Of a stretch of DNA of 64,000 nucleotides, positions 3,543-35,163 are shown one piece after another. Positions within the stretch are counted from its first letter, which is position 1, and every line of letters begins with the position of its first letter. A model generated the notes under the pieces. That model searched no databases and was not told where the DNA came from. It worked only from the letters and a program-made list of their open reading frames with translations. The DNA lies in assembly GCA_016936555.1 (NCBI GenBank), contig JAFGXR010000007.1, positions 1 to 64,000 of the forward strand, written 5' to 3'. The stretch comes from Spirochaetales bacterium (lineage in GTDB: Bacteria; Spirochaetota; Spirochaetia; DSM-2461). Position numbers and translations under genes: made by a program.

Positions 3543-3558
3543 AAAGTGAAAATCCTCA

Positions 3559-20782: not shown

Positions 20783-22231
20783 TCAGTAGAGCCCTTCTAT
20801 TGATCCCACTGTAAAAATGACCAGTGAAACAACAATTGTTGTGAATACAGTCATAATTATCCCTGATTTCGCGAAATCGCGGATTGAAAAATATCCGGCC
20901 GAATAGGGAATGACATTGGTCGGACTCGAGGTGACCAGTATAAAAGCCAGAGACGCGGTTATGGCGGCCGGCAGGGTGATGGAAAGGGCATCGAATCCCA
21001 GATTATCAGCCAGGGCGATCATTATGGGGATGACGATCGTAGCCGTAACGCTGTTGCTCGAAAGCGCCACTTTCAGGATCATGACAATGAGAACGATAGC
21101 ACCGACTCTCAGAAGAGGCGAGAAACTGCCGATTCCGCCGAGCAGAACAAAGGAGAGCCAGCCGGCGGCGCCGGACTGATAGAGCATCATGCCGATGGAA
21201 ATTCCCGTGACGACCAGGATGATCCCGCTCCACGAAACGTCCTCTTCAATTTCCTTCCACTTCAGGGAAGTGACTCCGGGAAAAAAGAAGAGAGTCGCCG
21301 TAAAAAAGACCGGCATGGATGTGGGAATGGCGATACCCAGCAATTTCTGCAGCAGACCGGATGTGAGCCAGAGCAGCACAGTCAGGAGAAAAATAACCAA
21401 TGTCAATTTCTCTTCACGGCTCATGGGCGGATAATGATCAAACTCATGGCGCAGCTCTTCTTTGGTTTTCTTCAGATGTTTCATTTCCGGCTTAAACAGA
21501 AGCATCAGAAGCCCCCAGCCGATGGGCAGAAGCAGAATCACCGCCGGGACGCCGTACATCATCCAACGGGTGAAACTCAGGTCAATGCCGGCGATTTCTT
21601 TCAGAAAGCCTATGGCTATGGGATTGGGCCCGGCTCCTGCCGGCGTTCCGATTCCCCCGATAAGAGGACCCCACACCGTTGCAATCATCAGCGCTTTTCC
21701 GAAATTGCTTTTCAGCTTGAGACACCCTTCCTCTTCCAGAATAGCCACTCCCAGAGGCAGCAGCATGGCCGCCACGGCCATATTGGTTATCCACATGGAC
21801 AGGAGGGCCCCCACCAGCATAAAACCGAATATGATCATGGCCGTACTGTTTCCCGTTCTGGAAAGCAGGAAAACGCTGATTCTTTTCCCCAGACCCGATC
21901 TGGTGATAAAGGCGGAGAGAATCAGAACCCCGATGAAGAAGGCAATTATATGGTTTCCGAATCCGACGCTGACGATATTTTTAAAGGTATCGACACGGAA
22001 AACAGCCAGCAGGACAACGCCCAGCATCCCGGTTATATGAAAGGGAATGGCTTCGGTCATCCAGAGAATGAGACAGAACAGGAGAAGCCCCATGGCAATC
22101 TGTCCTTCCTGAGTCAGAACGCCCTTACCGGCATTACGGATTGAATCGGGAACGGGAAGAACCATCATGAGAGCCATAACCACAGCGGCTATAGCGAAAT
22201 AGAGAAGTTTTTTTCCGGTTTCTTTTGTCAT
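20783..22231 (-). CDS. DASS/SLC13-family anion transporter (probable sulfoacetate exporter)
   Basis: 482-aa membrane protein with about 12 hydrophobic segments. Family signatures are WITNMAVAAMLLP in the first half and SSNSVTATIVIP plus TSSPTNVIPYSAGYF in the second, the SNT-type repeats that bind carboxylate and sodium in DASS transporters. It is the last gene of the split-transketolase operon and overlaps the SucD-like gene as ATGA. In this context the most economical role is movement of the end product sulfoacetate across the inner membrane; import of a related anion is the alternative. Function is inferred from position; the family assignment is secure. Confidence 0.85.
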   Translation of the reverse strand: MTKETGKKLLYFAIAAVVMALMMVLPVPDSIRNAGKGVLTQEGQIAMGLLLFCLILWMTEAIPFHITGMLGVVLLAVFRVDTFKNIVSVGFGNHIIAFFIGVLILSAFITRSGLGKRISVFLLSRTGNSTAMIIFGFMLVGALLSMWITNMAVAAMLLPLGVAILEEEGCLKLKSNFGKALMIATVWGPLIGGIGTPAGAGPNPIAIGFLKEIAGIDLSFTRWMMYGVPAVILLLPIGWGLLMLLFKPEMKHLKKTKEELRHEFDHYPPMSREEKLTLVIFLLTVLLWLTSGLLQKLLGIAIPTSMPVFFTATLFFFPGVTSLKWKEIEEDVSWSGIILVVTGISIGMMLYQSGAAGWLSFVLLGGIGSFSPLLRVGAIVLIVMILKVALSSNSVTATIVIPIMIALADNLGFDALSITLPAAITASLAFILVTSSPTNVIPYSAGYFSIRDFAKSGIIMTVFTTIVVSLVIFTVGSIEGLY

Positions 22232-23121
22232 CGGACTCGATCTCCCAGCAGCTCTTTGAGATAATCGCCGACAAATCGCGGTCTTTCAGCTACTTTTCCG
22301 CCGACGCTTTCGATGGCTTTGATTTTATCTTTGACCGAGCCTTTCCCTCCGGAAACAATAGCTCCGGCATGGCCCATCCGCTTTCCTTCGGGGGCGGTCC
22401 GCCCGCCGAGGAATGCCACAAGTGGCTTGGTGAAGATTCCCAGCCCTTTCATTTCAGCGCATTCCTCTTCCATGGTGCCCCCGAGCTCACCGATAATCAC
22501 AACCGCATCGGTCTGGTCATCAGCTTCATAGAGAGGCAGCATTTCGGCGAATCTGGTGCCCGGGACGGGATCTCCTCCGATACCGATCAGAGAGGATACG
22601 CCGAATCCCGCTTTAACGACCATGGCCGTAACCTCGTTGGTGAGGGATCCGCTTCTGGTCATGACACCGATTCTGCCCTGTTTATAGACCCGTTCTATCC
22701 AGTAGGGAAAGAAACCCATCATCGCTCTGCCCGGAGAAATGACTCCCGAAGTATTTCCGCCGATAACCATGGCGCCTTCCGACATGGCGGCTTTTCTTAT
22801 CTGAACAGCATCGTGGAGAGGTATTCCATCGGCTACCGTAACGATCTTTTTTATCCCCCCGTCGAGGGCTTCAAATACGGCGTCCTTTGTAAAGCGGGGC
22901 GGCACAAACAGCATGGAAGCCTCGACTTCAACCTTGTCCACAGCTCTTCTGACAGAGTGATAGACATCCCGTCCCTCCACCTGCTGCCCCTCTTTTCCGG
23001 GAGTGACGCCGGCCACGACATTGGTTCCGCAGCCTATCATATGATTGGTCCAGAAACTCCCCTCTTTACCGGTGATTCCCTGTATGAGTACTTTTGTTGT
23101 TTCGTCGATGAATATGCTCAT
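22228..23121 (-). CDS. SucD-like CoA ligase alpha subunit (SqwL/SqwK-type, sulfoacetyl-CoA to sulfoacetate)
   Basis: 297 aa; CoA-binding Rossmann domain at the N-terminus (QGITGKEGSFWTNHM) and phosphohistidine H251 in MGHAGAIVSGG. This is the alpha subunit of an ADP-forming acyl-CoA synthetase. Ordinary succinyl-CoA ligase sits in a TCA setting; here it overlaps a CoA-acylating aldehyde dehydrogenase by way of its partner subunit, as in described sulfo-transketolase clusters, where the pair makes ATP while releasing sulfoacetate. The TGKEGSFWTNHM region differs from the standard SucD GFTGxQGTFH pattern. Substrate assigned from context; succinate is the alternative. Confidence 0.8.
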   Translation of the reverse strand: MSIFIDETTKVLIQGITGKEGSFWTNHMIGCGTNVVAGVTPGKEGQQVEGRDVYHSVRRAVDKVEVEASMLFVPPRFTKDAVFEALDGGIKKIVTVADGIPLHDAVQIRKAAMSEGAMVIGGNTSGVISPGRAMMGFFPYWIERVYKQGRIGVMTRSGSLTNEVTAMVVKAGFGVSSLIGIGGDPVPGTRFAEMLPLYEADDQTDAVVIIGELGGTMEEECAEMKGLGIFTKPLVAFLGGRTAPEGKRMGHAGAIVSGGKGSVKDKIKAIESVGGKVAERPRFVGDYLKELLGDRVR

Positions 23122-24242
23122 GGCTTCTCCCCTTTGGCGATAGCAACGGCTTTACGCACCGCCTCTTCCGTATCATAGAGAGGAACCAGACCGGCTTCCT
23201 TCAGGATCCGGCTCGCGTCCTCTTCGTTGGTTCCCCGGATACAGGTTACTATGGGCCTGTCGGGCTTGAGCCGGCTTATGGCATCGACAATCCCTTCGGC
23301 CATGACATCGGCGCGGGCTATGGTCCCGAAAGTAACGACCAGAATGACTTTAGAGTCGTTTTTCAGACAGAGCTCCATAGCCCTGACGGCTTTCTTGTAG
23401 TTCGGGCCTCCGAATTCGAGGTAGTTGGCCACGGTTCCGCCTTCATAGTTGATCAGGTCGTAAACGGTTGTAGTCAAACCGGCTCCCGCGCACATAAGGC
23501 TGATATCGCCGTCGAACTGGAGATAGGGGATTCCTTCAAGAGAGGCTTCGTACTCCGCATCGGAATCGTAGTAATCCCTTGTCTTCCCGTAAGAGGGCTG
23601 ACGGAAATCCGAATTATCGTCGATCGACAGTTTCCCGTCTCCGGCTATGATATTGCCATCACCTGTAATGAAGAGGGGATTTATTTCAATCAGCTCCGCA
23701 TCGCTGGAAACGAAAGCTTTATATAGATTAGCGAGGACCGCTGAGAATTTTTTCAGCAAGTCCCCTTCCAGCCCCAGGGAGAACCCGACGTTTTTTATCT
23801 GAAATGGCATAAGGCCTCTATCGGGATCGACGTATTCCCGTATTATCCTTTCGGGGCTCTCCACGGCGAGTGTTTCGATTTCCACTCCTCCGTCCCCGCA
23901 GGCGATAATCATGTGTTTAGCTTCAACAGGATCGACGGTGATGGAGAGATAAAGTTCTGTTTTAATATCGACAGCCTGTTCAACCAGGATTTTTCTGACG
24001 TTGTATTCCGAGTCAAATAATTCTCCGCATTCTTTACGGGCCTGTGCTTCATCGCTGACAAGGCGGATAAGACCTTTTTTACCCCGTCCGCCCATGAGAA
24101 GCTGAGATTTCAAAACAATCGGAAAACTTGTTTTCGCCATGGCATCGCTCAACTCTTCAGCATTTTTAATCAGGACGCCAGCCGGTGTTTCTATTCCGAA
24201 TTTCCTGAATGTTTCCTTGGCCTGATACTCGAATAATTTCAT
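23118..24242 (-). CDS. SucC-like CoA ligase beta subunit (SqwK/SqwL-type)
   Basis: 374-aa ATP-grasp beta subunit that takes the phosphate from the alpha-subunit histidine to make ATP. It shows the N-terminal EYQAKETFRKFGIETPAG, the nucleotide-loop lysine in KSQLLMGGRGKKGLI, the metal-binding AELIEINPLFI and the C-terminal LEFGGPNYKKAVRA. Overlaps of 4 bp with both neighbours (ATGA) indicate tight coupling with the dehydrogenase upstream and the alpha subunit downstream. Together with them it would conserve one ATP per sulfoacetyl-CoA. Confidence 0.82.
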   Translation of the reverse strand: MKLFEYQAKETFRKFGIETPAGVLIKNAEELSDAMAKTSFPIVLKSQLLMGGRGKKGLIRLVSDEAQARKECGELFDSEYNVRKILVEQAVDIKTELYLSITVDPVEAKHMIIACGDGGVEIETLAVESPERIIREYVDPDRGLMPFQIKNVGFSLGLEGDLLKKFSAVLANLYKAFVSSDAELIEINPLFITGDGNIIAGDGKLSIDDNSDFRQPSYGKTRDYYDSDAEYEASLEGIPYLQFDGDISLMCAGAGLTTTVYDLINYEGGTVANYLEFGGPNYKKAVRAMELCLKNDSKVILVVTFGTIARADVMAEGIVDAISRLKPDRPIVTCIRGTNEEDASRILKEAGLVPLYDTEEAVRKAVAIAKGEKP

Positions 24243-25642
24243 TCATATCTCCTGAAGAAATCGCCCCAGATCTCTTCATCGGTCGGTCTGACCGGAGAAA
24301 ACCACTCGGAAACAAAAGTGACATTGAGAAAATGTTTATAGGTGATATTTTCCGTGGTGATATTCCCGCCCCAGGTTCCGCAGCCCAGAGTCGTGGTCGA
24401 AGCCATGCCGTTGAAAAAGTTTCCTCCGTTAGCCGGAGCCTGCGGCTGGTTTATCATAATGCGGCTGGTCCGCATATCCAGGGACATTCGCTCAACGTAG
24501 GAAGAGTTTTTCGTATGGATTCCGCAGGAGTGACCTGTTCCGCAGTTATCTGTCAGTCTGATCAGGATCTCCATGGCGCGGTCGAAACCATTGTATTTGA
24601 AAATGGTGAGGACCGGAGAGAGTTTCTCCTGGCTGAAATAATCATCTTCAATGGCATCTGCCCCTTCAACGAGGAGGATTCTTGTCCCGCCGGGCACTTT
24701 CAAACCGGCGCCGGCGGCAATTTCCTCTGCCGATTTAGCTATAATGGCGGGATTGATAGACCGGTGTCCGTTTTTTCCGGTAATCCACATCCACTCTTCA
24801 AGAGCTTTTCTCTCTTCGCCGGTACAGAGATAGGTTCCCGCAACTTCGAGCTCTTTGACGACACTGTCATAGATGCTTTCCTCGACAATGATCGAGTTCT
24901 CGGAGGAACAGGACGTGGCATTGTCAAAACACTTGCTGAGAACCACTTTATCGACGGCATCTTTCCAGTCCGCATCCTCTGCGATGATCTGCACGGAATT
25001 TCCTGGTCCGACACCATAGGCGGGGGTACCACTCGAATAGGCCGCCTTGACCATGGCGCTGCCGCCGGTAGCCAGAACCAGATCGACCTGCTTCATTAGC
25101 TCTCCGGTCGCTTCGATAGAGGGTTCCTGAACGATCTGAATAAGATCCTCGGGAGCTCCGACACGTTTCAATCCCCGGCGCATGAATTCGACAGCTTTGG
25201 CCGATGCTTTTTTAGATCGGGGATGGGGTGCGAAAATAACGGCATTTCCCCCTTTGAGTATGGAAACCCCATTGCTGGCCGGTGTTGCCGTAGGGTTTGT
25301 CACAGGAGTCAAAGCTCCGACGACCCCGACTGGCTTGGCATATTTTTTAATTTTCTTCTCAGGTATTTCCTCGATACAGCCCGTGGATTTCACCCCTTTT
25401 AAATCATTGATAACGCCGAGAACTTTCCCTTTGTGTTTAGCAATTTTATCGGGAACATTTCCCATACCGGTTTCCTCAACTGCCATTTCCGCAAGAATTT
25501 TAATATTCTCGTCATTATAGACTTCCCAGGCGACAGCCAGACAGATATCGTCAAGCTGCTGCTGGGAATAGCCGGCGGCCACAGACTGCGCCGCCCGGGC
25601 TTTTTCAACAAGAGAGGCTATCATCTGCGCTGTTTCAGCCAT
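24239..25642 (-). CDS. CoA-acylating aldehyde dehydrogenase (sulfoacetaldehyde dehydrogenase, SqwD/SauS-type)
   Basis: 467 aa, an aldehyde dehydrogenase of the acetylating (AdhE-N/EutE-like) branch: it oxidises an aldehyde with NAD(P)+ and CoA to the acyl-CoA. The catalytic cysteine lies in FDNATSCSSENS and the conserved PVTNPTATPASNGV and GTGHSCGIHT segments are present. In this operon the expected substrate is sulfoacetaldehyde from the second transketolase step. Start at 25642 with GGAGGAAGAG upstream; the ATG overlaps the end of the isomerase gene by 8 bp. Acetaldehyde or another short aldehyde is the alternative if the pathway assignment is wrong. Confidence 0.85.
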   Translation of the reverse strand: MAETAQMIASLVEKARAAQSVAAGYSQQQLDDICLAVAWEVYNDENIKILAEMAVEETGMGNVPDKIAKHKGKVLGVINDLKGVKSTGCIEEIPEKKIKKYAKPVGVVGALTPVTNPTATPASNGVSILKGGNAVIFAPHPRSKKASAKAVEFMRRGLKRVGAPEDLIQIVQEPSIEATGELMKQVDLVLATGGSAMVKAAYSSGTPAYGVGPGNSVQIIAEDADWKDAVDKVVLSKCFDNATSCSSENSIIVEESIYDSVVKELEVAGTYLCTGEERKALEEWMWITGKNGHRSINPAIIAKSAEEIAAGAGLKVPGGTRILLVEGADAIEDDYFSQEKLSPVLTIFKYNGFDRAMEILIRLTDNCGTGHSCGIHTKNSSYVERMSLDMRTSRIMINQPQAPANGGNFFNGMASTTTLGCGTWGGNITTENITYKHFLNVTFVSEWFSPVRPTDEEIWGDFFRRYE

Positions 25643-26123
25643 AGATCTCTTCCTCCAGTTTCTGGACCTCTTTAAAGGCATTGGTCAGAAAGTCTTTTTT
25701 GAATTCCATTTTCTGGGTAAAAGCCATGGAAAGCCAGGCGTCCACGATCTGAGTACCCAGGAAAGGCGCCGTGATCCATCCCCCCATGGTGATGATATTG
25801 GCGTTGTTTATGATCTTGCTCCGTTCGGCGGCAAAAACGCTGTCCACGACCGAAGCGTATACACCTTTGAATTTATTGGAGACAATGGCCATTCCCTGAC
25901 CGGTACCGCAGATAAGAATACCTTTTTCAGCCTCGCCGCTCTGCACGCACCTGGCCACTTTGGGAGCCTGTTCGAAATAGGGTTTGGGGTTCTCTTCCGA
26001 TTCAATTCCGAAATCGATCACTTCTATCGCGTCGGCATAATTTTCTTTCAGATGTTCAACGACAGCTTTTTTCAGGGGAAAACCCGATAGATCCGATGCA
26101 ATTGCCAGTTTTATTTTTTCCAT
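25635..26123 (-). CDS. RpiB/LacAB-family sugar isomerase (SqwI-type sulfoerythrose isomerase)
   Basis: 162 aa with the RpiB fold. The catalytic-base cysteine C72 is kept in LICGTGQG. Two residues that RpiB uses for its phosphorylated, ring-closed substrate are changed: the ASDHAG motif reads ASDLSG (residues 9-14), and the ring-opening His of SREHNDAN is Ile105 in SKIINNAN. Both changes fit a non-phosphorylated, open-chain substrate such as 4-deoxy-4-sulfoerythrose, which has no 4-OH to close a ring. It lies between transketolase and the aldehyde dehydrogenase, as in sulfo-transketolase clusters. The residue comparison is from memory of E. coli RpiB. Confidence 0.82.
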   Translation of the reverse strand: MEKIKLAIASDLSGFPLKKAVVEHLKENYADAIEVIDFGIESEENPKPYFEQAPKVARCVQSGEAEKGILICGTGQGMAIVSNKFKGVYASVVDSVFAAERSKIINNANIITMGGWITAPFLGTQIVDAWLSMAFTQKMEFKKDFLTNAFKEVQKLEEEIYG

Positions 26124-26139
26124 AATTTTCCGCTCCCTC

Positions 26140-27078
26140 CTATTTTCTTTTGATCAGCGCCTTGGCTTTTTCTGCAATATTTTCTTTAGTGAATCCGTAG
26201 GCTTCTTTCAGATATTCGAGCGTCCCGACCTGACCGAACTGATCTTCGACAGCGACGGCCGCCACGGGAGCGGGATATTCCTCACCGAGACACTCCGCAA
26301 CGGCGCTGAAAAGTCCGCCTTTTTTCTGATGGTTCTCACAGACCAGAACGGCGCCGGTTTTTTCAGCGCTCTCCACTACCAGTTTTCTGTCGAGAGGCTT
26401 TACTGTATGCATATCGATGACGCGGGCATTTATTCCCTCATCGGCGAGCATCTCAGCCGCGGCCAGCGCTTCGGGAACCATGACGTACCCGCTGGCGATG
26501 ATGGTCAGATCTTCCCCCTCTTTCAGAACATTGCCCTTTCCGAGAACGATCTCATCGGATTCGCCGTAGAGGGTGTATTTCCCTTTTCTCTGAAGACGCA
26601 TATACGTGCTGCCCTTATGTTCAGTCGCTTGCCTGATCAGGGATTTCAGCGATACGCTGTCGCAGGGTTCGAAAATAACCAGGCCGGGAATGCAGCGCAT
26701 GAGGCCCGTATCCTCAAAGGGCATATGGGTTCCGCCGTTGAAGGCCGCGGTAACGCCCGGATCGGTTCCCACAAGTTTTACGTTCTGCTGAGCGTAATTG
26801 GCGGAAATAAAAAACTGATCGTAGGATCTTCTGGCGGCAAAACAGCCGAAAGTGGCGGCCCAGGGGATTTTCCCGCCTGCGGACAGACCGGAAGCGACCC
26901 CGACCATATTGGCTTCGGCGACACCCACATTAAAAGCCCTCTCGGGGAATTTGTCTTTGAATGATCCGGTTCCCGTGGCTCTCATCAGATCCGCCTCGAG
27001 AACGCAGATTCTCTGATCGGCATCAGCCATTTCCATCAGAGTTTCCGTATATACATCTCTCATATCTTTATCTGACAT
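26140..27078 (-). CDS. Split transketolase, C-terminal subunit (SqwH-type)
   Basis: 312 aa: pyrimidine-binding domain (residues about 1-165; RDVYTETLMEMADADQRI, conserved Glu in VGVAEANMVGVASGLS) and the C-terminal domain (about 190-312). It pairs with the adjacent N-terminal subunit to form a TPP enzyme that moves two-carbon ketol units. Proposed reactions here are sulfofructose + glyceraldehyde-3-P to sulfoerythrose + xylulose-5-P, then sulfoerythrulose + glyceraldehyde-3-P to sulfoacetaldehyde + xylulose-5-P. Start placed at 27078 with GAGGAA upstream, 16 nt after the partner gene. Confidence 0.88.
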   Translation of the reverse strand: MSDKDMRDVYTETLMEMADADQRICVLEADLMRATGTGSFKDKFPERAFNVGVAEANMVGVASGLSAGGKIPWAATFGCFAARRSYDQFFISANYAQQNVKLVGTDPGVTAAFNGGTHMPFEDTGLMRCIPGLVIFEPCDSVSLKSLIRQATEHKGSTYMRLQRKGKYTLYGESDEIVLGKGNVLKEGEDLTIIASGYVMVPEALAAAEMLADEGINARVIDMHTVKPLDRKLVVESAEKTGAVLVCENHQKKGGLFSAVAECLGEEYPAPVAAVAVEDQFGQVGTLEYLKEAYGFTKENIAEKAKALIKRK

Positions 27079-27094
27079 CGTTATTTCCTCTTCC

Positions 27095-27913
27095 TCAACC
27101 CAGCGCTTCAATGGCTTCTTTCGCCTGTTCGTAGGTGAAAGCCATATTGTGATTGGTAATGACCCCTTCCGCGAAGGAGCAGCCTTTGCCCTTGATAGTA
27201 TCCATAATGATCATGGTCGGCTTATCCTTCGATTCCCTGGCTCTGTCGATCGCAGCGTCGAGTTCGGCGAAGCTATGGCCGTTCACCCTGTCGGTATTCC
27301 ACCCGAAAGCCTTCCATTTGGCTTCGGGATCATCTATGGACATGATTTCGCTGGTGTAGCCGTCTATCTGCATTTTGTTGTAGTCGGTAAACGCAATAAG
27401 CTTGTTGAGTCTGAACTGAGAGGCCGTCATGGCCGCTTCCCAGTTCTGCCCTTCCTGGGATTCCCCGTCTCCGATGATGGCGAAGACATTGCGCTCCGAT
27501 TTATCGAGCCTCATGGCCAGAGCCAGCCCGATGGCCGATGAAAGTCCCTGCCCGAGAGATCCGGTCGTCATATCTATTCCCGGCGTCCTGTTCATATCGC
27601 AGTGGCTGGGAAGATTGGTACCGCCCACATTGAGAGTGCGGAGCCATTGTTCGGGAAAAAAGCCTTTCTGAGCCAGAGTGCTGTACAGCGCCGGCCCGGC
27701 ATGACCTTTGGAGAGGACGAGCTTGTCCCGGTCTTCCATTTTCGGATTGGAGGGATCCACATGCATTTTCCTGTAATAGAGAATGGTCAGCAGATCGGCA
27801 ATGGACATGGCGCCGCCTATATGCCCGACTCCGAGAAAACCGATAGAATCTATGGTTTTTTTTCTGATATCTTTCGCCAGATCTTCAAGATCTTTGTATT
27901 TGTTTTCAGACAT
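27095..27913 (-). CDS. Split transketolase, N-terminal subunit (SqwG-type)
   Basis: 272 aa: the pyrophosphate-binding half of transketolase. The TPP motif runs from GDGESQEGQNWEA to the following Asn in FTDYNKMQIDG; GHIGGAMS, LSKGHAGPALY and TTGSLGQGLS are typical. Split transketolases also serve ordinary pentose metabolism, so the specific role comes from its neighbours. First gene of the leftward seven-gene operon; its upstream region shares a TTACTTAC box with the ROK gene and the ABC transporter promoter. Confidence 0.88.
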   Translation of the reverse strand: MSENKYKDLEDLAKDIRKKTIDSIGFLGVGHIGGAMSIADLLTILYYRKMHVDPSNPKMEDRDKLVLSKGHAGPALYSTLAQKGFFPEQWLRTLNVGGTNLPSHCDMNRTPGIDMTTGSLGQGLSSAIGLALAMRLDKSERNVFAIIGDGESQEGQNWEAAMTASQFRLNKLIAFTDYNKMQIDGYTSEIMSIDDPEAKWKAFGWNTDRVNGHSFAELDAAIDRARESKDKPTMIIMDTIKGKGCSFAEGVITNHNMAFTYEQAKEAIEALG

Positions 27914-27930
27914 CTCAACTCCTGATTTAG

Positions 27931-27988
27931 TTACTTACTGTAAATAAATAATTAAATACAAATTATCACTCTCCGGGGATTCTGTAAA
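27931..27988 (-). promoter_or_regulatory. Promoter and operator of the split-transketolase operon
   Basis: On the minus strand TTTACA (27988-27983), 17 bases and TAATTT (27965-27960) form a plausible promoter. Just downstream, at 27931-27947, lies TTACTTAC-T-GTAAATAA, an imperfect palindrome that shares TTACTTAC with two other sites in the locus. In this position a bound repressor would block elongation. Confidence 0.6.
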
Positions 27989-28007
27989 GCGAATTTGATT
28001 TTGATTG

Positions 28008-28055
28008 TTGCAAAAAAAACAAAAAAGCTGTTAAAATAAATTAAAACTTACTTAC
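28008..28055 (+). promoter_or_regulatory. Promoter of the ROK regulator with a TTACTTAC box
   Basis: TTGCAA (28008-28013), 18 bases and TAAAAT (28032-28037) precede TTACTTAC at 28048-28055, which lies near the expected transcription start and 12 bases before the ATG. Suggests autoregulation. Confidence 0.5.
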
Positions 28056-28067
28056 AGGAAGAAATAA

Positions 28068-29246
28068 ATGGCGAAATCTGACCTGCCTCTCCGCGGAAAC
28101 GATATTAGAATCATAAATGAAAAGCTGATTCTGGGTCTGATACAGAAGAACGGCAACCTGTCTCAGTCGGAAGCGGTGAACCTCACAGGCCTGAAACCGC
28201 CTACTATTTTACGCATTTTCGCCAATCTTGAAAATGAAAAACTCATCACAATTAATAAAAAATCAGATATTTCCACAGATAAAAAAGGCAGAAAACCGGT
28301 TTATTATAAAATAAATGCCAAAGCCGCCTATGCTATCGGCATAGATTTCTGTTCCACATCCATTTCTGTCGTCATCGTCGACTTCAACCGCAGACCGGTA
28401 TACAGCAAGTTTATCGATATCAATGAGGACCACACAGGCGATTCCATATTCGAACTGATCTGCCAGCTGATACAGGAGGGAATTGATTCGAAATCGATTC
28501 CGAAATCAAGATTGCTGGGAATCGGTATCGGAGCCCCGGGGAAAGTCGATATTTCGTCGGGATCTGTCATTTTTTATGATCGCATTGCCGGATTATCGGA
28601 CTATCCACTCCGGAAGAAAATGTCGGAACGGTTCAATACGGAGATTTTCGTCAACAACAACTGCTCCGTCATCGCCATGAACGAATATCAGTACGGCACG
28701 GTTTCCGAATCCCAGTCCCTCGTAACTCTGCTTATAAGAAGCGGTGTGGGCGGAGCCTTCATCAATGAAGGCCAGGTTCTTACGACCAAAGGCTCAACTA
28801 CGATGGAAATCGGCCATACATCCATTGATTACAACGGCAGACAATGCGAGTGCGGAGAACGGGGGTGCCTTCAGTCCTATCTTGCGGAACCGGCTATAAT
28901 GAAAGACATTCAGGTCCTATCTCCTCTGAAAACTTTTCTCGAAATAGATGAACTGATCGGAAACAATTCTCCCGGAATTGAAGATTTTATAAAAGGCAAA
29001 GCCGAACAGATGACAAAAGGTCTGAAAATGCTCAGCCGGGTTTTTTCTCCCGACACGTTTCTGATTATTTCCCGCTCTCCTCTCTACGCTCAGAAGCTGG
29101 CATATTACACAAACGAGCTTTTACAGAACGATCCCTGCCGGTTTGATAATATCGAAGGGCTGACAATCGAACACTGCGCCTACAATCCTGTGCATGCCGG
29201 ACAGGGAGCCGCCGACCTCGTATTTACAGACTATTTCACTCACTGA
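28068..29246 (+). CDS. ROK-family transcriptional regulator
   Basis: 392 aa. An N-terminal winged helix-turn-helix (about residues 18-85, NLSQSEAVNLTGLKPPTILRIF) is followed by a ROK sugar-sensing domain with the GIGIGAPGKVD nucleotide-site pattern and the zinc motif CECGERGC after EIGHTSID. This is the NagC/XylR type of repressor. Its position between the two divergent catabolic arms and the shared TTACTTAC boxes suggest that it represses both arms until SQ or a pathway sugar binds. AGGAAG lies before the ATG. Confidence 0.9.
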   Translation: MAKSDLPLRGNDIRIINEKLILGLIQKNGNLSQSEAVNLTGLKPPTILRIFANLENEKLITINKKSDISTDKKGRKPVYYKINAKAAYAIGIDFCSTSISVVIVDFNRRPVYSKFIDINEDHTGDSIFELICQLIQEGIDSKSIPKSRLLGIGIGAPGKVDISSGSVIFYDRIAGLSDYPLRKKMSERFNTEIFVNNNCSVIAMNEYQYGTVSESQSLVTLLIRSGVGGAFINEGQVLTTKGSTTMEIGHTSIDYNGRQCECGERGCLQSYLAEPAIMKDIQVLSPLKTFLEIDELIGNNSPGIEDFIKGKAEQMTKGLKMLSRVFSPDTFLIISRSPLYAQKLAYYTNELLQNDPCRFDNIEGLTIEHCAYNPVHAGQGAADLVFTDYFTH

Positions 29247-29271
29247 TCCTTCATGTTTTTAAAGATTTTAT

Positions 29272-29317
29272 TTGACAGGCATTTATCAGTCGTGATTTAC
29301 TTACTTATCGTAAGTAA
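29272..29317 (+). promoter_or_regulatory. ABC-transporter promoter overlapped by a perfect ROK-type operator
   Basis: TTGACA (29272-29277) is followed after 17-18 bases by an ATTTAC/TTTACT -10 region that runs into a perfect 8-bp palindrome, TTACTTAC-N5-GTAAGTAA, at 29297-29317. AAGGAG and the ATG of the binding-protein gene follow. Binding here would cover the -10 region. Confidence 0.75.
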
Positions 29318-29334
29318 TTAAAAAGGAGAATGAA

Positions 29335-30597
29335 ATGAGAAAAATCACTTTTCTGGTTCTTTCACTGACTCTTATCGTGGCAGGTACTGTTTTTGCCAAC
29401 GGTCAACAGGAAAAAGACAAAGAAATCGTTCTGAAATGGCCTTCAATCTGGGTCGGTGAGGATTCAAAAGCCGGTGTCGTAGCACAACTGGTCGAGCAGT
29501 TCAATGCCGATAACGCAGGAATGATCAAAGTTGAGGTTGAAGCACAGCCCGACTATGACGGATACGAGCAGAAGATAAGAACATCCATCGCCGCCGGTAT
29601 CGTTCCCGATATTTTCACAATGAAACTCAACCCCACAACCAAAGCTTATTACGACTCTCCCCTTCTGATGGATTTTTCAAAAGAGCTGAGTACGGGATGG
29701 GGCAAAGACTTCAACGAGGGCACAGTCGCACAGGCAACTGTCAACGGCATGGTAAAATCCCTTCCCTACGAAGTGGCTATTACACCGGTATGGTACAATA
29801 TGGACCTTTTCAAAAAGGCCGGCGTTTCCAAATATCCCCGGACCTACGCTGAATTCCTCGACGCGGCGGCCAAGCTTAAAGCAGCCGGTTTTATTCCCAC
29901 ATCCCAGATGACCGGCGGATCCAATGCTTGGACTTCCATGCTCTGGTATTCCCATTTTCTGGCTTCTTTCGGCGGCCCGGATGTTTATGCCAATCCTTTC
30001 GGAACTGATGCTTATGTAAAAGCGGCTGAAGTTCTTCTCGCCATGTACAGCGATGGAAATACTTCCATGGACGCCATCGGTGGAGATGCCGGCGTTTCCG
30101 GAGGCCATTACCTGGCCGGAGAGTCCGCGATGTTCATAAATGGCCCCTGGTACATCGGCCGTGTAAAAACCGAAGCTCCCGCCGTATACAGCGCAACGGA
30201 AGTCGGTCCCGCACCAGCAGCCGGAAGCCAGAAAGGCGCCATGATCGGTTTCCTCCAGACAAACTTCGCCGCGGCAGCAAACGCCGACGACCCTGAAAAA
30301 GCCGCAGCCGCAGTCAAGTTCATAAAATGGATGACAAAAGCTGAAAATGTGGCGAAAATTTCCGCAGCGTCCGGAGCCATGTTCGCCGTCAAATACGATT
30401 CATCTTCGATCAGTGATGAACTGATGGGCAAATTCATCAACGCTTCCAACGATGCATCATTCACAATTCCCCATCTCGAAGGTGTTGTCACTTCCGATGT
30501 AATTACAGAGTTCGGACAGGCTCTCGGAAAAATGGCTCTCGGCGAAGCCACACCGAAAGAGTTTGTTGAAATGCTGAAAAAAGTTCAGGACCAGTAA
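29335..30597 (+). CDS. ABC sugar transporter, extracellular solute-binding protein
   Basis: 420 aa, family 1 solute-binding protein. The signal peptide ends near TVFANGQQ; there is no lipobox cysteine, so it is likely a soluble periplasmic protein. The mature part has the usual two-lobe pattern (IVLKWPSIWVGEDSK start; AINGPWYIGR-like GESAMFINGPWYI near residue 262). In this locus the likely ligand is SQ or sulfoquinovosyl glycerol. AAGGAG lies before the ATG. The partner permeases follow after a 200-bp gap that contains a MITE-like repeat. Confidence 0.88.
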   Translation: MRKITFLVLSLTLIVAGTVFANGQQEKDKEIVLKWPSIWVGEDSKAGVVAQLVEQFNADNAGMIKVEVEAQPDYDGYEQKIRTSIAAGIVPDIFTMKLNPTTKAYYDSPLLMDFSKELSTGWGKDFNEGTVAQATVNGMVKSLPYEVAITPVWYNMDLFKKAGVSKYPRTYAEFLDAAAKLKAAGFIPTSQMTGGSNAWTSMLWYSHFLASFGGPDVYANPFGTDAYVKAAEVLLAMYSDGNTSMDAIGGDAGVSGGHYLAGESAMFINGPWYIGRVKTEAPAVYSATEVGPAPAAGSQKGAMIGFLQTNFAAAANADDPEKAAAAVKFIKWMTKAENVAKISAASGAMFAVKYDSSSISDELMGKFINASNDASFTIPHLEGVVTSDVITEFGQALGKMALGEATPKEFVEMLKKVQDQ

Positions 30598-30623
30598 ACA
30601 TATCTTAGTACTATAATGATATC

Positions 30624-30773
30624 AGGGGCTGTTGCAAAAGAAGACATCTGTTCTGCCCCTCAACCCCGGCCCTTCTCCCAAAAGGAGAAGGGAGAATAGC
30701 TCGCTTTGAACTCCTCTCCCTCCGGGAGAGGCCGGGTGAGGGCTGTGGAAATGGACTTTTGCAACAGTCGCCT
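30624..30773. mobile_element. MITE-like element between transporter genes
   Basis: About 150 bp bounded by terminal inverted repeats: the left end AGGGGCTGTTGCAAAAG matches the reverse complement of the right end, with a perfect core CTGTTGCAAAAG. Inside, CCCTCAACCCCGGCCCTTCTCCC and its complement form further arms (GGAGAGGCCGGGTGAGGG), so the whole can fold into a long hairpin. There is no open reading frame. This is the look of a non-autonomous transposon or REP-like palindrome. The terminal TGTTGCAAA resembles ends of several IS families. I could not see a clear target duplication. Confidence 0.75.
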
Positions 30774-30800
30774 TATTTCTCTTTCAAGGAAAACACCGAA

Positions 30801-31679
30801 ATGAAAAAAAACAAGAATATCAGAATGATATTGCTTTTCCTTGTTCCCGTTGCCTTTCTCTACATCAGCTTTTTTATCTATCCTCTGGCATTCGTTCTGG
30901 GAACGAGTCTCACAGAGTGGAACGGGATCACGGAAATGAAATTCGCCGGAATTGACAATTACAAAAAGCTGCTGACCGACGAGACCTTTCTTCTGTCCAT
31001 AAAAAACAACATTATATGGGCCTTATCCGGTGGTTTCATCCAGATTCCGCTGGCGACTATGGTGGCGTTAATACTTGCAAGGAAGCCGAAAGGATGGAAA
31101 ACGCTCAGGACGATCTATTTCCTTCCAAATATTATTTCCGCCGTTGCCATCGCCATGATGTGGAAAGCCATATACAATCCCATGTACGGTTTTCTCAATG
31201 CCTTTTTAAATCTGTTCGGAATTGAAGGCCATAACTGGCTCGGGGAGACGGCGACGGCTCTGCCTTCCGTCATAGCCCAGACAGTCCTCTACATCGGCTA
31301 TTTTATGGTTATCATATTCGCCGCGACGACGACCATTCCCAAATCCTTTTACGAAGCCGCTGAAATTGACGGATGCACGACCCTTCAGCAGGAGTGGTTT
31401 ATAACGATACCCATGATCAGGGGGATCCTGGTGACAACCATAACCCTGGCCATGGCTTACGGTATGCGCCATTTCGAAGCGACTTTTCTGATGACAAGCG
31501 GCGGTCCGGCTCACTCAACCTCTGTTATGGGTCTGATCCTGTACAACAAAATGGACGCCTTCCGCCTCGGCGAGGCCAATGCGACCGGTACGATACTCAT
31601 CCTTCTGGGTACAGTGGTAATCGTTGTGATCCGCAAACTTCTTTCGGGAAGGGATGCCGGATCCGATTCGGTGCAGTAG
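30801..31679 (+). CDS. ABC sugar transporter permease 1 (MalF-like)
   Basis: 292 aa with six membrane segments and the EAA-loop EAAEIDGCTTLQQEWFITIP that contacts the ATPase. Start chosen at the ATG at 30801 (AAGGA upstream); an in-frame TTG at 30759 lies inside the MITE-like repeat. It works with the binding protein and the second permease. No ATPase gene lies in the locus, so a shared MsmK/MsmX-type ATPase encoded elsewhere is likely. Confidence 0.92.
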   Translation: MKKNKNIRMILLFLVPVAFLYISFFIYPLAFVLGTSLTEWNGITEMKFAGIDNYKKLLTDETFLLSIKNNIIWALSGGFIQIPLATMVALILARKPKGWKTLRTIYFLPNIISAVAIAMMWKAIYNPMYGFLNAFLNLFGIEGHNWLGETATALPSVIAQTVLYIGYFMVIIFAATTTIPKSFYEAAEIDGCTTLQQEWFITIPMIRGILVTTITLAMAYGMRHFEATFLMTSGGPAHSTSVMGLILYNKMDAFRLGEANATGTILILLGTVVIVVIRKLLSGRDAGSDSVQ

Positions 31680-31689
31680 GAGTATTGTA

Positions 31690-32514
31690 ATGAAAGTATT
31701 TTTAAACACCCTGAAATGGATTATTCTCATATTTTTTCTTTTCGTGGCCCTGTATCCCCTTATCTGGCTCCTCCTGGCGTCTTTTAAAGCCAATAACCTG
31801 GAATTACAGCAGAACCCCTTCGGTTTTCCCGAAAAGTGGATGTTCATCAACTATTACAACGCCATGGTCAAAGCGAAACTTCCCTCCCTGTTTATCCATT
31901 CGATCATCGTGGCCTTCAGTGCCGTTTTCCTTAACCTTCTGGTAGCCTCCATGACATCCTTCGTCATTTCAAGAGAGGATTTCAAAGGCAAGAATGTACT
32001 TCTGACAGTCATAGCCGCGGGAATACTGCTGCCCATCATCTCTTTCATGGTCCCCTACTTTACCATAATTCAGAAAATGAGGCTCTACGATTCTCTTCTG
32101 GCTTTGATTATTGTCTACAGCGCTATTAACATTCCCATTTCCGTCTTTCTCCTCACGTCGTTTATGGGATCCATCCCCGTGGAGCTGGAGGAAGCTGCTA
32201 CGATCGACGGCGCCGGTTTTGTGCAGAGATTTACGAAAGTCATTATCCCCCTTTCCCAGACGGGTCTGGCGACGGCCGGAACATTCTGCTTTATCTATTC
32301 CTGGAACGAGTTCATAATGGCGCTTCTTCTCACCTCTTCCGAATCGTCCAGGACCCTGCAGCTGGGCATACGGTTCTTTACCAGCCAGTTCGTCACTGAC
32401 TATACGGCCATGTATGCGGCCATTGTCATAACAATTATCCCGAGCATCGTCGTGTATTTTATTTTCCACAACAAAATTATCTCCGGATTGACAGCCGGAG
32501 CTGTAAAGGGTTGA
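31690..32514 (+). CDS. ABC sugar transporter permease 2 (MalG-like)
   Basis: 274 aa with six membrane segments and the EAA loop EEAATIDGAGFVQRFTKVIIP. The start is the ATG at 31690, after TAGGAG that spans the stop codon of the first permease; an ATG at 31654 lies within that gene. Followed 7 nt later by the GH31 glycosidase, so uptake and hydrolysis genes are co-transcribed. Confidence 0.92.
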   Translation: MKVFLNTLKWIILIFFLFVALYPLIWLLLASFKANNLELQQNPFGFPEKWMFINYYNAMVKAKLPSLFIHSIIVAFSAVFLNLLVASMTSFVISREDFKGKNVLLTVIAAGILLPIISFMVPYFTIIQKMRLYDSLLALIIVYSAINIPISVFLLTSFMGSIPVELEEAATIDGAGFVQRFTKVIIPLSQTGLATAGTFCFIYSWNEFIMALLLTSSESSRTLQLGIRFFTSQFVTDYTAMYAAIVITIIPSIVVYFIFHNKIISGLTAGAVKG

Positions 32515-32521
32515 GATTTCC

Positions 32522-34513
32522 ATGAAACTGATTGCCAATAAAAAAGGATTTACGCTCTCTCATAAAAACAGGATTCTTCTGTCCCATTCAGCTGAAGCAC
32601 CGGCCATTTTCGCCGGCACTGGAGAGGGAAAGTACAAATTCAATTACGGCCTCTTCAAAATCAAAGACAGCAATCTCAAAATGCAGAGCTGCCTCGACTA
32701 CAAAGTGGAGGAGTCTTCCGGCGATCTGATCCGGATCTCCTTTTCCTGCGGCTTCTCTCTTGTTTTCAGAGAAGTTCAGGACCGCATTCATATGGAATCG
32801 GAGCAGACAAATAACAGGCTGAACCGCTTCAAACTTATACTGAAAGCTTCTGAAAAAGAGCATATCTACGGTTGCGGCGAACAGTATACCAAGCTGGATC
32901 TGAGAGGGCAGAAACTTCCGATCTGGGTGCAGGAGCCGGGACTGGGACGGGGGAAGGATCTGATAACCCTTCTGGCTGAAATGAAACAGGGATACGGGGG
33001 AAATGCCTTCACCACTTATTTCTCTCAGCCGACTTTTGTCTCGTCGGACAACTGGTACTTCCACTCCGAGGGGACAGCCTACAGCGAATTTGATTTCAGG
33101 AAGAAAAAAGAGCACAGCCTGGTTTTCTGGCAGATTCCCCGGAAGATTATTTTCGGAGTTGAAAAAAGTGCCGTCGAAACTCTCTCTTCCCTCTCCGCCT
33201 ATCTGGGCCGGCAGAGAAAGCCCCCGGAATGGGTTTATGACGGGATGTTGATAGGAATGCAGGGCGGCCGGGAAGTGACGACGAAAAAGCTGCAGGACGC
33301 CCTGGATGCCGGTGTTAAAACGGCTGCGATATGGTGTCAGGACTGGGAGGGTATCCGCATAACCTCATTCGGCAAGCAGCTCTTCTGGGACTGGAAACCC
33401 AACGAAGAACTATACCCCGATTTCAAAGGATATATGAAAGAGCTGAACGGCAAAGGGATTAAATATCTCGGTTACATCAATCCGTTTCTGGCTCTGGAAG
33501 GTCCTCTTTACGCTGTGGCGAAGGAAAAGAACTACTGTGTCAAAAACGATAAGGGAGAGGATTATTACGTCTATATAACGACTTTCCCCGCCGCTATGGT
33601 AGACCTCACGAATCCCGAAGCGGTCAAATGGATCAAAGAGGTTATAAAAAAAGATATGATCGCCAGAGGCCTTTCCGGATGGATGGCCGATTTCGGAGAA
33701 TATGTGCCGGCCGATGCGGTTCTCCATTCCGGTGTCGATCCCGAGGTTTATCACAATCAGTATGCTGCGGACTGGGCCCGAATCAATTATGAAGCGGTCC
33801 TGGAAGCCGGTAAAGAAAATGAAATTACCTACTTTATGCGCGCCGGATATACGGGATCGTCAAAGTATTCGGCCATGAACTGGAACGGCGATCAGCTTGT
33901 GAACTGGAGCCTGGACCAGGGATTCGCCACGGTAATTCCCGGAACCATATCCATGGGCTTTTCCGGGATAGGTTATACTCATTCCGATCTCGGCGGCTAT
34001 ACGACGATCCTCTGGCTGAAAAGGAGCAAAGAGCTGTTTATGCGCTGGGCCGAACTCTCCGCTTTCACCCAGACCATGAGAACCCATGAAGGGAACCGGC
34101 CCGACTCGAACTGGCAGTTCAACAGCGATGATGAAACGCTCTCCCACCTGGCGAGAATGACTGAAATCTACACAAAACTGAAACCCTATCACCTGGCTCT
34201 TTCCGATGAATATCAGAAAAGCGGAATCCCGCCGGTCCGTCATCCCTATATCCACTATGAAAAGGATAAGGTCCTTCATAATCTGAAATATCAGTATATG
34301 TACGGCAGGGATCTTCTGGTTGCCCCCGTTATAAGTCAGGGCAAAGAGAAATGGAAAGTCTATCTCCCCTCCGATAAATGGATACATCTCTGGAGCGGAA
34401 AAGAATACAAAGGCGGATGGTTCACCGTTGACAGTCCCCTGGGTCACCCTCCGGTTTTCTATAGAAAGAACTCCGAATTTGCATCTCTATTTCAGGAGAC
34501 CGGTCTATGTTGA
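32522..34513 (+). CDS. GH31 glycosidase, sulfoquinovosidase (YihQ-like)
   Basis: 663-aa cytoplasmic glycoside hydrolase family 31 enzyme, expected to release SQ from sulfoquinovosyl glycerol. The nucleophile is D390 (MADFGEY) and the acid/base D457 (NWNGDQ). Spacing to the E. coli YihQ active site is gap-free in this stretch: taking YihQ Q262, Q288, R301, W304, D405, D472 and Y508, the equivalents are Q247, Q273, Q286, W289, D390, D457 and Y493. All match except R301, which is Gln286. That Arg binds the substrate sulfonate in YihQ, so specificity or affinity may differ. Long matching segments such as QTMRTHEGNRP and HSDLGGYTT support the subfamily. YihQ numbering is from memory. The stop overlaps the next gene by 7 bp. 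Confidence 0.85.
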   Translation: MKLIANKKGFTLSHKNRILLSHSAEAPAIFAGTGEGKYKFNYGLFKIKDSNLKMQSCLDYKVEESSGDLIRISFSCGFSLVFREVQDRIHMESEQTNNRLNRFKLILKASEKEHIYGCGEQYTKLDLRGQKLPIWVQEPGLGRGKDLITLLAEMKQGYGGNAFTTYFSQPTFVSSDNWYFHSEGTAYSEFDFRKKKEHSLVFWQIPRKIIFGVEKSAVETLSSLSAYLGRQRKPPEWVYDGMLIGMQGGREVTTKKLQDALDAGVKTAAIWCQDWEGIRITSFGKQLFWDWKPNEELYPDFKGYMKELNGKGIKYLGYINPFLALEGPLYAVAKEKNYCVKNDKGEDYYVYITTFPAAMVDLTNPEAVKWIKEVIKKDMIARGLSGWMADFGEYVPADAVLHSGVDPEVYHNQYAADWARINYEAVLEAGKENEITYFMRAGYTGSSKYSAMNWNGDQLVNWSLDQGFATVIPGTISMGFSGIGYTHSDLGGYTTILWLKRSKELFMRWAELSAFTQTMRTHEGNRPDSNWQFNSDDETLSHLARMTEIYTKLKPYHLALSDEYQKSGIPPVRHPYIHYEKDKVLHNLKYQYMYGRDLLVAPVISQGKEKWKVYLPSDKWIHLWSGKEYKGGWFTVDSPLGHPPVFYRKNSEFASLFQETGLC

Positions 34514-35163
34514 AAGATCTGATTGAGGTCAACAAGCCCCTGGCGATTTTTCCTGTAGACTCCCCTGCCATGGACCGGTACGGACGGATTATCACAGGGA
34601 TAGACTGTTCCGATATGATCAATCCTTCGACGGAGGCGGCAGTGCCTGAGAACCCGACCTATCTCAGAGATCTTGAAGAGTTGCGCAGACAGGAATCTTT
34701 CGACCAGATCAGCCGTGAAGTCTACGGGGGAAAAATAGCGCTGCAGGCGGGCATCTGTTTCGGATACAACGACAGAATGAACGGGATGGAATACCACGAG
34801 GGCAGCGAAGTCATCGTAGCAATTACCGATTGTGTCCTCATTCTGGGGCGCTGCGAAGATATTCACGATGATATCTGGGATTCCTCGCTGGCCGAATGTT
34901 TCTATCTGCCGGAAGGGACTGTGCTGGAATTGTACAGCAATACGCTCCACCTCGCCCCCTGCCGCACCACCGACGCCCCGTTCTGCACTGTGATTATCCT
35001 CCCCGAAGGTACGAACAGACCTCTGGAGGGGAAATCGATCTCCGATCATCCCACTTATTTTATGGAAAATAAATGGCTGATCTGCCACAGCGAATCACCG
35101 GCTGTCCAGAGGGGAGCTTATGTTGGAATCCGCGGCGATAATATACGGATTAAGACGGTTTGA
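34507..35163 (+). CDS. DUF4867 cupin-like protein, probable sulfoquinovose isomerase
   Basis: 218 aa. The pattern GMEYHEGSEVIVAITDCVLILG, followed by PEGTVLELYSNTLHLAPC, is that of the DUF4867 (KduI-like cupin) family, with probable metal ligands in EYHEGSE and at Glu and His of the second segment. As I recall, members serve as SQ/sulfofructose isomerase in transaldolase- and transketolase-type sulfoglycolysis. It would convert SQ to 6-deoxy-6-sulfofructose, the first transketolase substrate. It overlaps the GH31 gene and is followed by a terminator, closing the rightward arm. Confidence 0.78.
   Translation: MLKDLIEVNKPLAIFPVDSPAMDRYGRIITGIDCSDMINPSTEAAVPENPTYLRDLEELRRQESFDQISREVYGGKIALQAGICFGYNDRMNGMEYHEGSEVIVAITDCVLILGRCEDIHDDIWDSSLAECFYLPEGTVLELYSNTLHLAPCRTTDAPFCTVIILPEGTNRPLEGKSISDHPTYFMENKWLICHSESPAVQRGAYVGIRGDNIRIKTV

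Follow-up and report, generated by a model that had tools for sequence, protein, structure and literature searches.

The window analysed here is a stretch of 64,000 nucleotides (bases 1-64000 of contig C87) from the spirochaete genome G000, a 4.73 Mb assembly of 134 contigs that is 95% complete. It carries at positions 20783-35163 a predicted locus for the breakdown of sulfoquinovose (SQ). Together with a cupin and a ROK regulon, this locus quite likely encodes oxidative (sulfoacetate-forming) sulfo-transketolase sulfoglycolysis in which a KduI/IolB-family cupin replaces the SQ isomerase SqvD. The pathway is already known and its occurrence in Spirochaetes has been published, so neither is new; the novelty seems to lie in the candidate replacement of SqvD by the cupin. 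We think it reasonably probable that this cupin is a non-orthologous SQ isomerase that has gone unrecognised next to YihS and SqvD/SftI and serves the sulfoacetate-forming pathway in part of Spirochaetota, and that in the window's organism the cluster, the cupin gene and a GPH-type transporter gene form a dispersed regulon under one ROK operator.

No SqvD found, and a KduI/IolB-family cupin as candidate replacement

An alignment of 14 SqwI proteins was compared with named genomes and gave 272 relatives. The best 80 loci of these 272 were used for locus counts, and the 45 of them that were at least 15 kb long served as a stricter subset. Mapping of gene neighbourhoods, which the initial annotation had proposed, showed the pathway to be widespread in Spirochaetota: by title, 71 of the best 80 loci belonged to that phylum, 6 to Chloroflexota and 1 to Verrucomicrobiota, and 2 were unassigned. 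G000, its sister genome G400 (locus L073) and G401 (locus L074) are drafts of one genus.

The locus had been described as complete-looking, which did not hold. SqvD was missing from the cluster, no match to it turned up in the whole 64 kb window, and the searches of the genome did not find it. The SqvD protein of L118, used as a query, detected nothing in G000, G400 or G401. With a 7-row SqvD alignment, matches of only 40.9 bits in G000 and 37.4 bits in G400 were obtained, and none in G401; the 40.9-bit protein is an L-arabinose isomerase (831 bits, cut-off 622). The SqvD profile, built without a 479-aa paralogue (L187), separated genome-wide matches into those of at least 375 bits, except for one 179-bit piece of a split gene, and those of at most 172 bits. 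Scores of SqvD within loci were at least 345 bits, with L138 alone lower at 193 bits, a doubtful case that was counted as SqvD.

A housekeeping enzyme could convert SQ instead, namely phosphoglucose isomerase, a GlcNAc-2-epimerase of YihS type or FucI, in view of the likeness of SQ to glucose-6-phosphate. The only phosphoglucose isomerase match of G000 (C87:66018-67391) shares the contig of the cluster, at a distance of about 31 kb, and the genome encodes three proteins of the GlcNAc-2-epimerase family (PF07221). However, the fetched stretch holding the phosphoglucose isomerase gene contained no site of the operator described below at three or fewer mismatches. The best models of the PF07221 proteins were N-acylglucosamine and cellobiose epimerase, below the cut-offs, and just one of the three aligned with E. 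coli YihS, at 23% identity. The sole Fucose_iso_C protein of G000 is a true L-fucose isomerase. We consider conversion by a housekeeping isomerase improbable.

The preferred candidate is a cupin of about 253 residues, whose gene follows the DASS transporter gene in L074 and L092 with 27 and 26 bases, respectively, from stop to ATG. Of the 80 named loci, tblastn detected it in 10; L076 has it as well. Its position varied: behind DASS (L074/L094, L092), before sqwG (L048/L100, L103, L108, L149), before sqwI (L122), behind the DUF4867 gene (L076), in the ABC arm (L147), convergent behind sqwI (L109) or some distance off (L169). SqvD/SftI (NF048012, PF02952), which presumably catalyses the same reaction, is of a different protein family, and no locus of the 80 carried both: the cupin was present in 10, SqvD in 38 and neither in 32 (Fisher p=0.0012). 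The 45 loci of at least 15 kb gave the same picture (cupin 8, SqvD 28, both 0, neither 9; p=1.1e-4), as they did when L138 was not taken as SqvD (8, 27, 0 and 10; p about 2e-4 by hand calculation). When SqvD status was determined genome-wide in 29 genomes, the cupin occurred in 1 of 13 SqvD-bearing and 10 of 16 SqvD-less genomes (p=0.006); here the cupin was sought in loci only, except in G000, where 60 fetched stretches were also searched, which favours the result by one genome.

In G000 the cupin gene is located at C35:2595-3356 as a solitary gene flanked by a TetR gene and an MFS gene, and its product is 83% identical to the L074 copy. It matched PF04962 with 51.3 bits (cut-off 23.9). The cupin resembles KduI/IolB ketol-isomerases of this family in its two-cupin fold and in the ligand pattern HxHxxxxE...H, with Z of about 22 to KduI and to an IolB-like protein. 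It differs from them in being only about 16% identical in the structural alignment and in sitting in sulfo-transketolase clusters or behind their operator. In the model (predicted local distance difference test score, pLDDT, 82; weak at the C-terminus), the first seven rows of VIA were KduI/IolB-like structures (Z 21.8-22.6, root-mean-square deviation (rmsd) 2.2-2.6, 203-213 residues aligned). The first rows of Foldseek were quercetin dioxygenase and oxalate decarboxylase, with KduI from row 5. Positions H167, H169, E174 and H214, which we take from the KduI alignment to be metal ligands, were invariant in 12 of 12 rows. The titles of three KduI entries name a complex with a sulfonate buffer (MOPS, HEPES and MES), a hint, and no more, that such a pocket can hold a sulfonate. 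A search of 72,556 plasmid records gave no match to the cupin at E 1e-5. In the open-licence literature of PubMed Central (PMC) we found no report of a cupin SQ isomerase, and sulfoquinovose with KduI led only to a paper on an E. coli regulator, as far as its available text goes.

The DUF4867 protein (34507-35163, plus strand; PF16161, 203 bits), the sole unassigned enzyme within the window cluster, might itself be the SQ isomerase, a cupin metalloenzyme that would handle the sulfonate analogue of glucose-6-phosphate in the manner of archaeal cupin phosphoglucose isomerase. The initial annotation had counted it among the core enzymes of the pathway. It corresponds to SqvB/SftX, a proposed mutarotase with no activity detected, so that this view was not sustained. 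Passages of PMC9594981 give it as SqvB, a proposed ring-opener, and name SqvD, of the FucI family, as the SQ isomerase; according to the available text of PMC11968277, the B. megaterium protein was crystallised and the E. rectale protein had no detected mutarotase activity on SQ or sulfofructose (SF). The window protein matched PDB 9gyy at E 2e-45, and its model (pLDDT 94.1) aligned with 9gyy in VIA at Z 33.1 and rmsd 1.5 over 216 residues. Its metal ligands E95, H97, E101 and H148 (2His-2Glu) are intact and were invariant in 16 of 16 rows. Cupin phosphoglucose isomerases took Foldseek ranks 4-8, but with TM-scores of only 0.3-0.4, and none was among the 50 VIA matches listed. DUF4867 was rejected as the replacement isomerase because it was not enriched in SqvD-less genomes (11 of 16, against 22 of 39 SqvD-bearing ones; p=0.55); in this count PF16161 scores of at most 35 bits were taken as absence (G424, G425, G443) and the genome of L138 as SqvD-bearing. 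DUF4867 and SqvD coexist in 22 genomes. Conservation within the cluster was lowest for DUF4867 (55% identity in L074 and 50% in L092, against 67-90% for the others present). We give an isomerase role of DUF4867 little probability.

If the isomerase is of another family, genome surveys that require a known SQ isomerase would miss these organisms; such a core-gene rule is stated in the available text of PMC13372026. The KduI-like cupin would also offer a single small protein on which a specific reaction can be assayed.

Predicted operator sites and a proposed dispersed regulon

The 17-mer TTACTTACAGTAAGTAA precedes three genes of the locus. The predicted operators are TTATTTACAGTAAGTAA upstream of sqwG (27931-27947, minus strand), TTACTTACAGGAAGAAA directly upstream of the ROK gene (28048-28064, plus strand) and TTACTTATCGTAAGTAA upstream of the solute-binding protein gene (29301-29317, plus strand). 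At three or fewer mismatches the window contained six strand-matches, at three places, versus 0.02 expected. A scan with consensus promoters and terminators gave counts near chance and was not used.

Ten picks, taken from cluster promoters in the window and in four relatives, served to train a matrix. The site on contig C35 was excluded from training; the window and L073 each contributed their sqwG site twice, so that the ROK-side site was not in the set. The scan of G000 covered 899,391 bases, about 19% of the genome, and more regulon members may therefore exist. The window sqwG site scored 31.8 bits, followed by the site of the cupin gene on C35 (27.6), the window solute-binding protein site (26.8) and a site on contig C12 (24.7); apart from the cluster, C35 and C12, the highest-scoring site reached 15.8 bits. 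The C35 and C12 sites had one mismatch each to the 17-mer. None of 5,186 non-overlapping 161-base blocks from the 60 fetched stretches had a site at three or fewer mismatches, with 50 blocks unreadable and the blocks of the C35 and C12 sites themselves left out.

The C12 site precedes a gene for a GPH-type (MFS_2) transporter (239 bits, cut-off 231), relatives of which, mostly 38-41% identical, were present in seven further SQ loci (G130 L035, G194 L195, G396 L075, L110, L128, L131 and L157). In L075 and L076 a similar site with one mismatch stands in front of the cupin gene, and in L118 one with three mismatches stands in front of sqvD. That isomerase genes of two unrelated families carry the cluster operator is, in our view, the best indication of a shared function. 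The ROK-family regulator (28068-29246, plus strand; PF00480 and a winged helix-turn-helix), presumably a local repressor, is presumed to bind the operator.

Several observations weigh against the cupin as the SQ isomerase of this pathway, or against the pathway itself. The Fisher p values overstate independence since the loci are related by descent, and because the genomes are related as well, all of these values serve as a guide. SqvD lay outside the fetched sulfo-transketolase locus in 10 of 12 SqvD-bearing genomes, and its absence from a locus alone is therefore weak evidence. Six of the 16 SqvD-less genomes, G400 and those of L093, L098, L123, L131 and L156, had no cupin in the locus; the contigs of L093, L098 and L156 end within the cluster. 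A Verrucomicrobiota genome (G436, locus L169) has both SqvD and the cupin, in different places. The cupin fell far under the KduI and IolB equivalog cut-offs (43.6 against 250 bits and 32.6 against 205), which marks it as a relative of these enzymes and not as a known equivalog, with SQ as a candidate substrate, and other two-cupin proteins appeared from row 8 in VIA (Z 21.8), within 1 to 3 Z of KduI. In 4 of 19 chosen loci (L072, L108, L131 and L149) the operator was not found at three or fewer mismatches. The close relative L092 has neither a GH31 nor an aldehyde dehydrogenase in its cluster. The substrate of the window GH31 is itself uncertain, given Gln at the position of YihQ Arg301.

Predicted pathway enzymes and the proposed reactions

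Judged from open reading frames and Pfam families, the locus at 20783-35163 comprises 13 genes in two divergent arms, and both the coordinates and the families given in the initial annotation were confirmed. The left arm, on the minus strand, begins with a predicted sulfofructose transketolase split into two genes. SqwG, the N-terminal half, which binds thiamine diphosphate (ThDP), is encoded at 27095-27913 (PF00456), and its best PDB match was the split-chain transketolase 6yak. SqwH, the C-terminal half, is encoded at 26140-27111 (PF02779 and PF02780). A tree of 38 C-half transketolases placed the 32 that come from SqwI-bearing loci (that of the window and 31 chosen others) in one clade with 100/100 support. 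Five transketolases of G000 and one from a relative fell outside this clade, where some branches were long. SqwI (25635-26123; PF02502), a predicted sulfoerythrose isomerase of the RpiB/LacAB family, shared 65-86% identity with its relatives in the 80 named loci, which span three named phyla, and 67-96% with 13 proteins whose loci encode SqwGH-type transketolases, against 36% with another RpiB of G000. The check on whether transketolase and isomerase group with ordinary pentose families placed both apart from their paralogues in the same genome.

Next in the arm is SqwD (24239-25681, true start possibly 25642; PF00171), a predicted CoA-acylating sulfoacetaldehyde dehydrogenase. Its best NCBIfam model was NF047625, SauS, at 521.8 bits, below the cut-off of 600, followed by AdhE at 434.8 bits; its best PDB match was the acylating succinate-semialdehyde dehydrogenase 8cei. 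The operon also contains a two-subunit ADP-forming CoA ligase, the predicted sulfoacetate-CoA ligase. Its SucC-like ATP-grasp subunit SqwK (23118-24242; PF08442 and PF00549) was under the succinate-CoA ligase beta cut-offs (331.3 against 370 and 330.3 against 375.6), and its SucD-like subunit SqwL (22228-23121; PF02629 and PF00549) slightly under both alpha cut-offs (335.6 against 336 and 329.9 against 353.2). The last gene of the arm (20783-22231) encodes a DASS (SLC13-type) anion transporter of the Na_sulph_symp family (PF00939, 188 bits; TIGR00785 above cut-off), a probable sulfoacetate exporter.

Transketolase, RpiB, ligase and dehydrogenase all have relatives in the pentose phosphate pathway, the tricarboxylic acid cycle or fermentation, and the cluster might thus be an ordinary pentose or uronate catabolism locus with a chance resemblance. 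This is contradicted by the separate SqwH clade, by the distance of SqwI from RpiB, by a GH31 score above the YihQ cut-off and by the SqvD or KduI-like gene that partners 48 of the 80 loci, and we consider it extremely improbable. The assignment to the sulfo-transketolase pathway type, made in the initial annotation, was upheld by the transketolase clade, by SqwI, by SauS as the best dehydrogenase model and by the YihQ match.

On the plus strand, the ROK gene is followed by genes for an ABC sugar-type solute-binding protein (SBP_bac_1; 29335-30597; PF01547) and two ABC permeases (BPD_transp_1, PF00528; 30759-31679 and 31654-32514). No ABC ATPase was among the scanned frames of the locus, which leaves one transport component lacking. 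The GH31 (32522-34513), a sulfoquinovosidase of YihQ type, scored 874 bits with NF007746 (cut-off 553), matched YihQ over nearly its full length and matched PDB 8r56, 5aed and 6pnr at E<1e-200. Its catalytic pair D405 and D472 is kept. Of the five residues that we take to form the sulfonate pocket of YihQ, namely two Gln, Arg301, Trp304 and Tyr508, four are kept, and Arg301 is replaced by Gln.

The last change bears on the possibility that the locus serves another sulfonated or anionic sugar, for instance a glycoside with a different acid group, by the same transketolase logic. Members of the KduI/IolB family act on uronates, and the sole PDB sequence match of the solute-binding protein at E 1e-20 or better was a xylo-oligosaccharide binder (3zkk, E 1e-21). 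On the other hand, the Gln-type GH31 also adjoins a true SqvD (L118, L153), the window protein retains Trp304 and Tyr508 along with both Gln and the catalytic Asp pair, and the best family of the C2 end, SauS, is sulfonate-specific. We find this possibility quite improbable. Gln at the Arg301 position occurred in 15 of 36 non-duplicate YihQ-like proteins (the window and 14 others), including the compared members of the window's family; the other pocket residues were kept in these 15, save for Phe in place of Tyr508 in two. An Arg at position 265 that would compensate for the change was rejected, as only 5 of the 15 carried it. The open-licence PMC literature yielded no report on sulfoquinovosidase R301 or the QQRWY motif.

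For SQ as the substrate, we infer every reaction, direction of transport and regulator-operator pairing as follows. The ABC importer would take up SQ or SQ-glycosides, from which the GH31 would release SQ. DUF4867, presumed to act on SQ or SF, may assist ring opening or anomerisation (mutarotation). SQ would be converted to sulfofructose by an isomerase encoded outside the locus, most likely the KduI/IolB-family cupin. SqwGH would transfer two C2 units onto glyceraldehyde-3-phosphate to give two xylulose-5-phosphate, and SqwI would act after the first cut and before the second. Sulfoacetaldehyde would be oxidised to sulfoacetyl-CoA by SqwD and converted to sulfoacetate and ATP by SqwKL, and sulfoacetate would leave through DASS. 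The ROK regulator, through the operator, probably controls the cluster, the C35 cupin gene and the C12 GPH-type transporter gene.

The pathway had been attributed to Clostridium sp. MSTE9, which makes isethionate; the sulfoacetate form was described from Acholeplasma. The available text of PMC12890257 gives both forms and names Spirochaetes for both, passages of PMC11659671 also describe the two, and according to the available text of PMC13219744 the isethionate form of Sphaerochaetaceae is transcribed in the cow rumen. MSTE9 and Acholeplasma were absent among the best 80 of the 272 loci, and likeness to both is by published description. As described in parts of PMC12890257 and PMC11659671, the variant of Acholeplasma sp. 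(Chu et al. 2023) shares with the window the split SqwGH, SqwI, the acylating aldehyde dehydrogenase and the ADP-forming CoA ligase; its exporter is named SqwE, whereas here DASS is present, and G000 differs further in that no SqvD was detected in cluster or genome and a KduI-like cupin gene stands elsewhere behind the same operator. Clostridium sp. MSTE9 (Liu et al. 2021; text of PMC11659671, PMC9594981 and PMC12890257 as available) shares SqwGH and SqwI, but its sulfoacetaldehyde is reduced by an iron-containing alcohol dehydrogenase (Fe-ADH), SqwF, for which the window has no match.

C2 branches and layout of related loci

The two C2 branches were separate among the 80 loci. SucC with SucD was present in 31, Fe-ADH in 29, both in none and neither in 20, of which 12 were shorter than 15 kb. 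With one-sequence profiles for Fe-ADH, TauE and DASS, DASS was found in 28 of 31 SucC-SucD loci and 0 of 29 Fe-ADH loci, and TauE in 0 of 31 and 28 of 29, respectively. We take SqwE to be of the TauE family; the 64 kb window had no match to the TauE profile, and carries DASS instead. An aldehyde dehydrogenase was present in 28 of the 31 SucC-SucD loci, the exceptions being L092, L099 and L171. By its gene content the window locus is assigned to the sulfoacetate-forming branch, in which DASS probably exports sulfoacetate in place of TauE. The pairing of DASS with sulfoacetate and of TauE with isethionate would help to sort genomes by the C2 sulfonate released to sulfonate-respiring neighbours.

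Gene order was the same in L073, where all 13 proteins were 83-96% identical to those of the window. It was also kept in L074, with all 13 proteins present, 12 of them at 73-90% identity and DUF4867 at 55%. The locus is not a product of chance, as its order and sequence are kept in both genomes. With the first possible starts taken, frames in the left arm overlap by 4, 4, 4, 47 and 17 bases, and the gap between the RpiB and Transketolase_C frames is 16 bases.

Some loci departed from this layout. In L092 (Spirochaetia GH26) a Gfo/Idh/MocA protein (2729-3925) occupies the place of GH31, and SucCD and DASS are retained though no dehydrogenase lies between SqwI and SucC. The 3.6 kb contig of L158 carries SqwGHI and, directly behind it, a diverged DASS (38%); dehydrogenase, ligase and Fe-ADH are all absent from this contig. 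Four spirochaete loci longer than 20 kb (L110, L118, L128 and L147) have SqwGHI and no SucCD or Fe-ADH matches, so that the end of their pathway is encoded elsewhere or is different. The six Chloroflexota loci (L095, L096, L097, L106, L114 and L133) have SqvD-SqwGHI clusters, five of them with a distant GH31 (25-27% identity) and a weak TauE match (64-73 bits); L097 has an aldehyde dehydrogenase match, and DUF4867, SucCD and Fe-ADH matches were found in none of the six. SMP-30/gluconolactonase, amidohydrolase, DUF362 and Fe-ADH/TRAP-transporter neighbours of single loci were absent among the families recurring in at least six loci.

A second group of adjacent genes, with a split transketolase, an RpiB-family protein of PRK09273 type and an IolD-like ThDP enzyme, was observed on contig C27 of G000 (L077:9304-13623). 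In the window, the interval between the solute-binding protein and permease genes (30598-30758) contains two strong inverted repeats with arms of 8-9 bases, perhaps a repeat element or a stabilising hairpin.

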